From: Sipunculus nudus | Taxonomy: Eukaryota > Annelida > Sipuncula > Golfingiida > Sipunculidae | Reading direction: 5' to 3' | Length of the DNA: 64,000 nucleotides | NCBI GenBank assembly: GCA_026874595.1 | Contig: CM049316.1 | Span: forward strand, 17,135,839-17,199,838 | Shown here: positions 39,201-46,017 of the stretch, in pieces | Layout of the letters: each line of letters begins with the position of its first letter | Position numbering within the stretch: the first letter of the stretch is position 1 | Made by a program: the position numbers and the translations under genes | The notes under the pieces: model-generated | What the model was told of the DNA's origin: nothing | The model's database searches: none | The model's input: the letters and a program-made list of their open reading frames with translations, nothing else

Positions 39201-42200
39201 AGCCTAGTGTCACAACAGACAGATCCACTACAGTACTGGAAGGTGAAAGAGCCCTTAAGCCCTTGCTTGCCAAGAAAGTGTTCGCAGTACCAGCTACTTC
39301 AGCCCCTGTTGAACGTATCTTTAGCATTGCGGGAAAAATCTTTAGACCAGATCGTTGCCGCCTGGGATATTCAACATTTGAACAGCTTATGTTCATCAGA
39401 TGCAATGGACAATTAATTTTGTTGTGAACTATTCATGCACCATTTGCTTTTTATTCCTGTTTTCATCTGATGCAATGGACAATTTAGTTGTGAACTATTC
39501 ATGCACCATTTTTTGTTTATTCCTGTTTTCATCAGATGCAATGGACAATTTAGTTGTGAACTATTCATGCACCATTTCTTGTTTATTTTTAGTGACTGGT
39601 AACATATTTAAATGTGACTTGATGATCATGAGCGGTCAAAAGTTCTTCATTATTAAACATTTCTTATTCACTGATTATTTACTTGTTTTTATTGAACCAG
39701 TAATAGTTAATAGTAATAGTAATAGGAGTAAAGTAATAGTAATAGCCACCTATTACTTTTTTACAGAAACACTAAAAATAATAGTTAATAGTAATAGGCA
39801 AACACCCAAAGTAATAGTAATAGGCCCTATTATTGAAATCAGTAATAGGCCCCATGCCTGCAGGACACACCCCCTAGTGATTGACTGACATAGACACACA
39901 CCCTCACTAATTAGCTGCCTGCCAGGACTGGCTAGTGGTAACAGGTTTTCATGGAAATTGGGGTCAGATATGGCTCATTCTCTGCAATAGAAAAAAGGCA
40001 ATGACTTTGTTCATATAAATCATATTAGTTTAATTCAAAATGATTTTTGATTCTGAAGTCAAGCCTTACCTGGAAATATATTTATTTTGTAAAATTCAGA
40101 TTCTGAAATTTTGACTGATAGACTGAAGTATTATGATCCCTGGTGTGGATGTTAGTGATGGAAGGTGAAAGGTGTGCCGATTAATCAATTAAATTGATAA
40201 TTGGTTATTTTCTTTCAAAACAAATTGCATCATTTTCATTTATGAAGTATCCATTAAAAACGAATGACATGGTGTACACATGGTGTAAAAAATCTGGGAG
40301 CGGTTATAGAATCCAGTCTACATGGACGAGATTATGGGTGTACAGGCGAGCCCACTTTGTGTCATATCAGTTAATAGAATATCCCGGTCACAAAAATATG
40401 AAATCCCAAACCATTTCTATAGAAACCTTAATAAAATTGATCGCTTAACTTCATGAATTAATGTCATAATCCCGTTTATTATCACTACTGGATCCACTTA
40501 AATTGATGGCGGTACCCACTTAATGTCACATCAAGCTCTAACAAGAGAAACCACTCCGACTACCAGCTTGGACTCGCCCATGCGTATCAAATGATCATAA
40601 CTCACCACTAGCCCTGCGATGCAGGTGGGCCACTCAGCATTAGTTAATTAGGCATAAACAAACAGTGTTCGTCAAAGTCACCTTACCCCTTTGATTTTAC
40701 TGTTAATTAGTTAATTAGAATCCGTTGTCACACCTATACCAGCTGGTGGGTTGTTGTGAACACGTGTCAAATTACTACTCAACACTTAACTACTCGATTG
40801 TTGATAAATGAATAACCATGCCCTTTATTATAAAAGAAGTTGGTCCTTTCATCATTTAAGAAAACATGTACGTTTTGCCTATTTAAACCCGCGAGGTCAT
40901 TCCGATCTCCGTGTAGTACCGCTGAAGTCACCGCCACAACTATGAGTGTAAACGCAAGTGTCATGATCTGTCATTTGAACAGAAGCTTGATATCATTAAA
41001 TGTCCGCGAACAGGTCAAAAGCGCAACTGTTTCAGGAATACGGCTGTTCCCAATCTACAATTTCTAAGATTATGAGCAAGAAACAAAAATCATGCAAGAT
41101 GCAAAACAAAATCGTAATGGCCCACGTAAAAGAAGACGACTTGGTAAAGCTGCAGATGTGGAGACATCATTATACACTTGGTTTGCCGACTGAGACTGTC
41201 CCATCTCAACTGCGTTACTGGAGGAGAAAGCAAACAGACTTGCTCTCGAGCTTGGCCGTACAGACTTCAAAGCAACAAATGGTTGGATCTGCCGATGGAA
41301 AGAATGTTATAACGTCAAGTTCAAAAAGGCCCACTGAGAAAAAAGCGACGCTGATGCCCCAGCGGCAGACACCTTTTCAACAACAATACTGCCTGAACTA
41401 CTAGAGTCATTCCAGCCAAAGGATGTGTATAAGGCTGACGAGACAGGGATTTTCTTTCGTGCATTACCAGATGGGACTTTGGCCTTAGCGACTGAAAAAC
41501 TAAGTGGAAGTAAAAGATCCAAGGAACGCCTTACAGTTTTGGTCTCTTCAAACATGAATGGCAGCGACAAGCGCCCCCGTTGATCATTGGCAAGAGCAAA
41601 ACGCCGCAATGTATCCGAGGTGTTTCCCAGTTACCCCTGCCGTATTCCAACAATAAAAGTGCCCGGATGACAAGCGATCTGTTCCGTGGCTGGCTACATG
41701 ATTTAAACAGAGACACTGCAAGACAAGACCGCAAGATTGCCCTTGTGCTTGATAACTGTGCAGCCCATCCGAAGGATGCCACTAACAATCTGGCACACGT
41801 GCGGCTTTTCTACTAGCGACAGCTTGTCACCCCAAACGTCGATTTTAGATGAACTGAAGACGATGGGGTGACAGTACAAGCTATTGGGTTCGCATCAATT
41901 CTAGTATGTGCAGATGTGCACGCCATTTCTGACACTACTTTTTCATTTTCATCTACATATCGAACTGTCATTTTCCTGAATTAAGACAAAAAGTGACGTT
42001 TTTCTGTTGGGGAAAATAATAATGATTACATCCACGGTTGACTTACGTGCATTCGTGCAGCAGTTTTTAATTCTGAGGCTGGTTTTACTCGAAAAACTCG
42101 TCTCCACGGTCTGTCAGCGGGAGAACCATAACTTCCGGTAGGGGATTTCCAAACGGCTATGTGTAAAACTCGAAAGTCCGAAGTCGGAAGCAAGGCTTTT

Positions 42201-45200: not shown

Positions 45201-46017
45201 CGGAAAGTTGTGCCGGAAAAATGAATGTATATGATTTTGTTTATATTTATGCTTAATAAATACTTTCGAACACATTTATATTGTTCTTTGATTCCATGTT
45301 ATTTGTTATGTTATGTTAAGACCACATATACTTAATGGCCCAATACCCTTTCATAGCCCCCATGACCTTGAAGCCCGAATAATATCACATCCCGGTTAAT
45401 GTCATATTTTTTGCATGAACGGATGATATGACATTAAGGGTGCTCGACTGTATACAGACGGACGTAATGAAGTTTAGGATTCATGTAATGGAGAAGTAAG
45501 AGGCATGTCGATGTCATACCTTCAGGCATGTCAAGGCTTATATTGATTACTACTCACATGAGATGGTCCAGTCAGTTTAGACCAATCTTTGAACTGAAAA
45601 CCGGAATCTATCCTCTGGCCAAAATCTTTTTTTTCATTACAATAACATAACGTCAGTTATCGTTAATTACATAAGTGTAAAAAAATTGCCAACCCTGATC
45701 AGCCTAAAATAATATATTTTTTAACTCTTTTATTCACGCGATTCAACTATGTCCGTTTCCTTAAATTTCAAGATTCCTCTCGGTGTAAATTAAAATTTGA
45801 CGTTTTGGGGCAGACTGCGGTTAGCAGGTTAGGTTCACAGTGGTGTACAGTAAATTACTTGTTGCTTTAATATGTTTTGCTGAATACTCACATCATAGTT
45901 GAATGGGCAAGTGAAGTTCTCTGTCCCTTCTAACGCCGTATTTATCCCACTTGGTCCACCAAGTGGGCCCAAACCACTGTTGGACATGTCAATTCCACAC
46001 ACTTGTGCCAGGGCCAT
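24212..46017 (-). CDS. PSMB5: 20S proteasome subunit beta type-5 (chymotrypsin-like), 7 coding exons
   Basis: Coding exons (minus): 46017-45892, 35142-34998, 33508-33397, 29909-29810, 28264-28235, 26998-26794 and 24300-24212. All introns are GT..AG. The total is 807 nt, 268 residues plus stop, and all phases agree. The start ATG has a strong context (ATCATGG). Residues 1-64 are the propeptide. Cleavage after HG exposes the catalytic Thr65 (TTTLAFKF), leaving a mature chain of 204 residues, the same as vertebrate beta-5. In mature numbering the catalytic or structural residues D17 (VDSRATAG) and K33 (QTVKK) and the S1-pocket residues M45, A49 and C52 ([10 protein letters not shown]) are all present, as is the RDAYSGG motif near 165-171. 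As an N-terminal nucleophile hydrolase in the 20S core it cleaves after hydrophobic residues. An AATAAA overlaps the stop codon. Nothing is truncated; intron 1 is 10.7 kb and full of transposons. Confidence 0.97.
25770..26600. repeat. 145-bp tandem satellite in PSMB5 intron 6
   Basis: Six diverged monomers are seen. The phrase TCAAGGTCATCCAT or a close variant begins at 25794, 25938, 26082, 26231, 26374 and 26521, giving spacings of 144, 144, 149, 143 and 147 bp. Each unit also carries a TGACCTTGA-type phrase 5' of it, a CTGCAAGTTTGGTGA block and a CATTTTAGCATTAT block. Sequence after the array (GGACAGAAAGACGGATGGACG) resembles the tails of other dispersed repeats in the window. Confidence 0.85.
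27000..28234. other. PSMB5 intron 5, no other gene seen
   Basis: AT-rich intronic sequence between the 30-bp exon and the fifth-intron acceptor. No mobile element or RNA gene was recognised. Confidence 0.5.
29995..30331. mobile_element. PIF/Harbinger-type MITE with 35-bp perfect TIRs
   Basis: A 337-bp element in PSMB5 intron 3. Its 35-bp termini are perfect inverted repeats (29995-30029 and 30297-30331), beginning GGCC, A8, TTAAAGG and continuing through TTCTCAGGCAC. The flanking trinucleotide TAA (29992-29994 and 30332-30334) is the TWA duplication typical of PIF/Harbinger, and GGCC-type ends also fit. It encodes no transposase. Confidence 0.85.
30850..33330. repeat. dispersed, diverged repeats in PSMB5 intron 3
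   Basis: Recurring phrases include ACCAGTCTTGTTTACAAGATGG or ACCAGTCTTGTTTATGCGG (near 31.02 and 31.17 kb), TGACCTCTGACCTCATTAAAT (near 31.4, 32.62 and 32.77 kb), and GCTGTGACCAAACC versus GTGTGACCAAAACC near 33.0 and 33.16 kb. Each is followed by similar text and by GACAGACAGA tails. These look like two or three head-to-tail copies of an old non-coding element. Ends are approximate. Confidence 0.55.
33688..33745. mobile_element. fragment of the PIF/Harbinger MITE family
   Basis: CATTCTCAGGCACTTTCTCAGATACTGATGCAGG.. matches, with mutations, the left-terminal 60 bp of the intact MITE at 29995. Only this end is present. Confidence 0.5.
36065..36405. repeat. pair of direct ~100-bp repeats inside the hAT element
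   Basis: A block starting CCATACTGTTATGATTAGGA and ending CTTATGAGTAGGCAAAAGA occurs at about 36042-36140 and again at about 36310-36408 with few differences. This indicates a local duplication after or before the element inserted. Confidence 0.85.
36498..39427 (+). pseudogene. decayed BED-finger hAT transposase
   Basis: A first exon (about 36498-36682) encodes a BED zinc finger: CKHCG and later SNFATH are seen only after a one-base shift in the AAAA run near 36612. It ends in a GTGAGT donor, and an acceptor precedes 37749. The main exon carries hAT hallmarks in order: LTIDIWSS (first catalytic Asp, about 38104), VTDNAS (second Asp, about 38294), CFAHTLQL (38451), NATRWNSQ (38610), LDPRFKLAW (38950) and the C-terminal dimerisation block with [16 protein letters not shown] (39286-39333). 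In-frame TAG codons at 37878 and 38013 and several frameshifts (near 38540, 38755 and 38845) show it cannot make a full protein. The ORF at 38846-39427 alone could still encode the C-terminal dimerisation part. Confidence 0.93.
39391..39592 (+). repeat. three ~70-bp tandem repeats at the transposase 3' end
   Basis: The phrase CATC(A/T)GATGCAATGGACAAT followed by GTTGTGAACTATTCATGCACC occurs three times in a row. The first copy overlaps the last codons of the hAT C-terminal block, so the duplication copied the gene end. Confidence 0.85.
40296..40342 (+). mobile_element. left part of a MITE split by the Tigger element
   Basis: GGAGCGGTTATAGAATCC..CATGGACGAG..TGTGTA-like sequence aligns with the reverse complement of about 56767-56814 and stops exactly at the TA where the Tigger element begins. 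The right part resumes at 45451. The complete copy is at 56594-56816. Confidence 0.85.
42193..42371. repeat. 88-bp exact tandem duplication
   Basis: Two head-to-tail units of 88 bp (AAAACAATG begins at 42206 and 42294) are essentially identical through the GATAGAATAAGG at their ends. This implies a recent duplication within the 3.3-kb insertion. Confidence 0.95.
44349..44386. repeat. (TA)n microsatellite
   Basis: About 19 TA units inside the 3.3-kb insertion. Confidence 0.92.
45451..45620 (+). mobile_element. right part of the Tigger-split MITE
   Basis: Starts at the TA duplication and runs TATACAGACGG..GGAGAAGTAAGAGGCATGTC..GGTCCAGTCAGTTTAGAC to CCGGAATCTATCCTC. It aligns over its whole length with the reverse complement of 56594-56766. 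Confidence 0.88.

Follow-up and report, generated by a model that had tools for sequence, protein, structure and literature searches.

How did a MITE, a pogo/Tigger transposon and a segment of about 3.3 kb come to lie one inside another in Sipunculus nudus, in what order did they arrive, and what moved the last of them? We addressed these questions in a 64,000-nt stretch of DNA (here, the window), placed at C11:17135839-17199838 of the 1.43-Gb assembly. The initial annotation had proposed a three-level nest formed in the order MITE, Tigger, 3.3-kb insertion, and uninterrupted copies that read through both junctions bear this out. We put at about 90% the probability that the nest arose by three successive insertions, of a MITE, then a pogo/Tigger element, then a 3303-bp element, and that the last moved by cut-and-paste; the figure covers the nest and this mode of movement together. 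Nested DNA transposons are ordinary genome history. What is new here is the identification of the 3.3-kb insert as one copy of a non-coding family with a 9-bp duplication.

Order of insertions

The outer element, about 216 bp long, lies in two parts around the Tigger element, and an uninterrupted copy is present in the same window (Table 1). When the two halves (40297-40342 and from 45453 on) are joined, they match 56597-56812 in reverse complement as one continuous sequence of a single family; the one gap, of 2 bp, is distant from the junction, and the local score is 268 versus 62 and 214 for the separate pieces. The uninterrupted copy carries a single TA at the Tigger site; around the Tigger the TA is duplicated (40341-40342 and 45451-45452). 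The reported read-through of the Tigger site thus stands, and the limits given for this copy, 56594-56816, are corrected to those in Table 1. In the nested MITE, the left duplication AAAATCTG and its right counterpart AAAATCTT (45621-45628) are identical at 7 of 8 positions, as read by eye.

Genome-wide, the MITE family has at least 40 matches (40 of 198 candidates scored). Eight copies measure 200–219 bp between their TIR motifs, with 8-bp duplications that, by eye, are clean in some and imperfect or unclear in others. Short, with inverted ends, many copies and a fixed duplication length, the outer element fits a MITE. Some MITEs, as in Merlin, have ends that begin with GG and make 8-bp duplications; the copy at 56.6 kb shares both features, but no transposase is linked to the outer MITE.

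The element that splits the MITE belongs to pogo/Tigger (Tc1/mariner), as indicated by its TA duplication, its inverted ends (32-nt arms at 81%, extending 5 bases beyond each end), a CENP-B-type N-terminus, DDE_1 matches and a D2–D3 spacing of 32, counted by eye. It differs from that group in that the window copy is interrupted, lacks about 610 bp and has its transposase in several frames. The frame changes along the left part, so the transposase was broken independently of the insert. The missing segment (~607–612 bp) is found in Tigger copies with both right-hand pieces; the window element has 5 bp in its place, at 45215-45221. DDE_1 (PF03184) is divided into profile positions 16–104 left of the insert (2.3e-14) and 104–135 right of it (4.8e-07), and each piece extends to position 104, as expected if residues on either side are encoded by the duplicated 9 bp. 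The insert is flanked by a perfect 9-bp duplication, CTTTTCTAC, and by the codons of the second and third catalytic Asp, placed by eye, in agreement with what had been claimed for both. Elsewhere in the window CTTTTCTAC does not occur on the + strand and occurs once on the - strand, at 63223. The piece of the transposase that carries D2 had no match among solved structures.

Because the segment sits within Tigger, it might be an ancestral part of that element, an intron or original interior, lost from other copies. An empty site at this second level had not been part of the initial annotation. All seven loci outside the window with a match to the 89 bases that immediately follow the insert (L047-L053) read through the junction without it, scoring 309–355 over 206–210 of 210 bases, and none holds the segment at this site. 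A single CTTTTCTAC is present in L047 and L051, the two alignments inspected in full; the junction stretch is missing from two further Tigger copies, L045 and L054. The segment is also found at unrelated places with 9-bp duplications of its own, exact in 25 of the 30 copies fetched. The read-through copies and these duplications lead us to reject an ancestral part, to which we give practically no probability.

Since uninterrupted copies read through at both levels, the order is MITE, Tigger, 3.3-kb element. Divergence is consistent with this order: K2P is 0.0006 between the insert and its nearest copy (on C14), identity is 88–95% between the left part of the Tigger and close copies (75% to the distant copy L054), and the nested MITE pieces are 85–87% identical to the other MITE copy in the window. 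On this reading, a pogo/Tigger element first invaded an old MITE at a TA. A non-autonomous element of 3303 bp, moving by cut-and-paste, then entered the Tigger transposase between its D2 and D3 codons, probably when the Tigger was already mostly decayed. Directly upstream of the nest, at 38016-39427 of the window, lie remnants of a hAT transposase (Dimer_Tnp_hAT, 2.8e-08), with a DUF659 match (0.00018) under its curated cut-off.

Table 1. Positions of the nested elements and related features in the window
Feature	Position	Strand	Remarks
Left target duplication of MITE	40289-40296	.	AAAATCTG; read by eye
MITE left part	40297-40342	+	ends in one TA of the Tigger target
pogo/Tigger element, whole	40343-45450	+	splits the MITE at TA
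Tigger left part	40343-41813	+	several frames
CENP-B_N match	41009-41089	+	Pfam PF04218, 1.2e-05; frame 41000-41404
D1 of Tigger transposase	41437-41439	+	by eye
D2 of Tigger transposase	41751-41753	+	by eye
9-bp target duplication, left copy	41805-41813	.	CTTTTCTAC
3303-bp transposon	41814-45116	+	young copy with TAGC...GCTA termini; no recognised coding sequence
Insert 5' end	41814-41883	+	predicted hairpin; first 70 bases
88-bp tandem duplication in insert	42192-42367	+	
Insert 3' end	45052-45114	+	predicted hairpin
9-bp target duplication, right copy	45117-45125	.	CTTTTCTAC
Tigger right part	45126-45450	+	
D3 of Tigger transposase	45162-45164	+	by eye
MITE right part	45451-45620	+	starts with the second TA
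8-bp TSD of uninterrupted MITE	56589-56596 and 56813-56820		GGAAGCAT
Uninterrupted MITE copy	56597-56812	-	empty site for Tigger

The insert and its family

The 3.3-kb insertion that had been reported is present, with its exact length refined to 3303 bp, and is a member of a large, recently moving non-coding family. Its divergence from the nearest copy is so low that it must have moved recently. Of 3880 first-look candidates, 40 were scored. Among these, four besides the insert are full-length (98–100%, window copy included), and the others align for the most part as several separate pieces; in 27 of the 30 copies fetched, the match extends to the insert's last or last-but-one base. The five youngest copies differ among themselves by K2P ≤0.0036, and medians over the 28 aligned copies are 0.029–0.054. 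A 27-base piece of the 88-bp tandem duplication occurs twice in four of these five and in none of the 23 other aligned copies.

Neither of the two longest frames of the insert (43430-43807 on the + strand and 43677-44144 on the - strand) gave a Pfam match at E 0.1. Three Rfam matches in the insert all score under their gathering thresholds, and no match reaches gathering window-wide. Positions 2113-2286 of the insert (window 43926-44099) are 68% similar to window 9747-9908 on the - strand, possibly reflecting a shared SINE-like module. Among other copies of the family, L037 is next to or within a member of the outer element's MITE family, and the repeat that hosts L018 is related to the 3' end of the Tigger. 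We found no description of the 3.3-kb family among the open-access literature searched.

The size of the family is also apparent from its ends. With up to 3 mismatches, the 27-base 3' end motif occurs at 1464 genomic places and the 5' end motif at 829; reversed-pattern controls for both gave 0. Exact matches on C1-C2 pair 47 of 68 left ends with one of 85 right ends within 10 kb. Grouped by eye, the resulting sizes are 90–102 bp (7), 2354–2806 bp (20), 3183–3836 bp (8) and 4162–4424 bp (8), and the remaining four are 1404, 5501, 6126 and 8258 bp, the last being uncertain, as a left end closer by would give ~2843 bp. In a 101-bp relative (L072, C1:57052765-57052865), the outer parts of the two family ends are joined directly, and this element has its own 9-bp duplication, CTGTAGATT; by eye, its target has a G at +3 and lacks the C at -3 that are described below. 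In a 4.27-kb copy (L069), the stretch read is AT-rich with no frame above 84 aa, and its last 220 bases are 91% identical to the insert; the shared part may run on past the stretch read.

Ends and target rule

Flanking direct repeats would by themselves be compatible with a retroposon, a SINE or LINE product. Their length, on the other hand, is near-constant: besides the 25 exact 9-bp duplications, L032 matches at 8 of 9 positions and L035 has 10 bp in common once shifted manually by one base. In L020 the left end is absent, in L036 the script misplaced the right end, and L027 has both ends without a duplication. Both ends of the insert are sharp, and the target rule forms a palindrome centred on the duplication. 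A retroposon is therefore very improbable.

This rule spans 15 bp, C-NN-[9 bp]-NN-G. Across 27 target sites (the 25 exact duplications plus L032 and L035), C is present at -3 in 21 and G at +3 in 19, with both in 15; the chi-square values are 55 and 45, versus 14.5 for the runner-up among 247 positions. A symmetric transposase dimer would account for the palindrome.

The two termini of the insert share only TAGC, beyond which a local match of 9 nt is chance-like, and no long terminal inverted repeats were found in the insert. Each end is predicted to fold on itself (Table 1), from RNA energies and without shuffles. Among 13 and 15 distinct sequences of the two ends, 15 and 6 pair cells are changed. 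Pairing survives in 3 and 2 of them, so most substitutions within the stems disrupt a pair, and no compensatory change or covariation was seen in these sequences. Variants per site are fewer at paired than at unpaired positions (0.30 versus 0.52 and 0.19 versus 0.87 at the two ends), which is weak support for the hairpins because the copies are close relatives.

Candidate transposases

A DDE transposase would move the 3.3-kb family in trans, and we see an even chance that it is Mutator-like (MULE). According to PMC6446971, MULEs make 8–11 bp duplications, a range that includes the 9 bp of the insert, and some groups have no terminal inverted repeats; among the entries of its table are Curupira (9 bp, no TIR) and a mollusc group likewise lacking a TIR. 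Long TIRs, which the insert lacks, are thus not required of a MULE. Muta1, an active MULE, makes 8 or 9 bp duplications with little or no target preference according to PMC5225508, whereas the preference of the 3.3-kb family is strong and symmetric. Against cut-and-paste by a MULE also stand the termini with only TAGC in common, the copy without a duplication (L027), the end hairpins, which covariation does not support, and the lack of an autonomous partner on C1-C2.

The assembly holds at least 131 MULE transposase matches (150 of 252 candidates scored). Forty-three of those listed (for example C1:77758026-77758319) have an open frame of 607 aa, with 34 scoring 47.6 bits, and this MULE family looks young and possibly active. 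At least 150 matches are of the IS1595/Merlin type (150 of 209 candidates scored). Placement of both was compared with exact end matches. On C1-C2, none of the 14 MULE matches and none of the 13 Merlin matches listed lies between paired exact ends, and no MULE transposase is linked to the family there. The closest of these matches is a MULE, which lies outside a left end at a distance of 4963 bp. By eye and blastn, no transposase was found in the stretches read from eight long copies (1101 bases of L069, 701 of L070, 401 of L071 and 100 each of L073-L077); seven of these stretches match the insert family or L069, and that of L077 matches a repeat found in other flanks, not the insert. On the small contigs C101-C138, sometimes several to a contig, are many IS1595-type transposase frames of uniform length and score (342 aa, 321–329 aa); these contigs resemble those of a bacterial symbiont or contaminant whose insertion sequences have expanded.

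The family may instead be moved by a non-MULE transposase with a 9-bp stagger, from Merlin, an IS4-like group or another superfamily. We hold this to be somewhat less probable than a MULE: the absence of any of the 14 MULE matches on C1-C2 from between the ends, the strong and symmetric target preference and the unusual ends all speak for it, but a search for Merlin as the partner likewise placed none of the 13 matches on C1-C2 between exact ends. Unclassified non-autonomous DNA transposons are named in Repbase by duplication length, and the insert family resembles these in being defined by its ends and 9-bp duplication only. It differs from them in its predicted self-folding ends and in size classes from ~0.1 to 4.4 kb that share end motifs. 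That these features (the 9-bp duplication, self-folding ends and C-NN-[9]-NN-G) mark an undescribed group whose transposase lies outside the families searched is an unlikely, though not negligible, prospect.

The nest illustrates neatly how empty sites, here at two levels, can reveal the order of events, and the target rule and ends of the 3.3-kb family are handles for finding its transposase.
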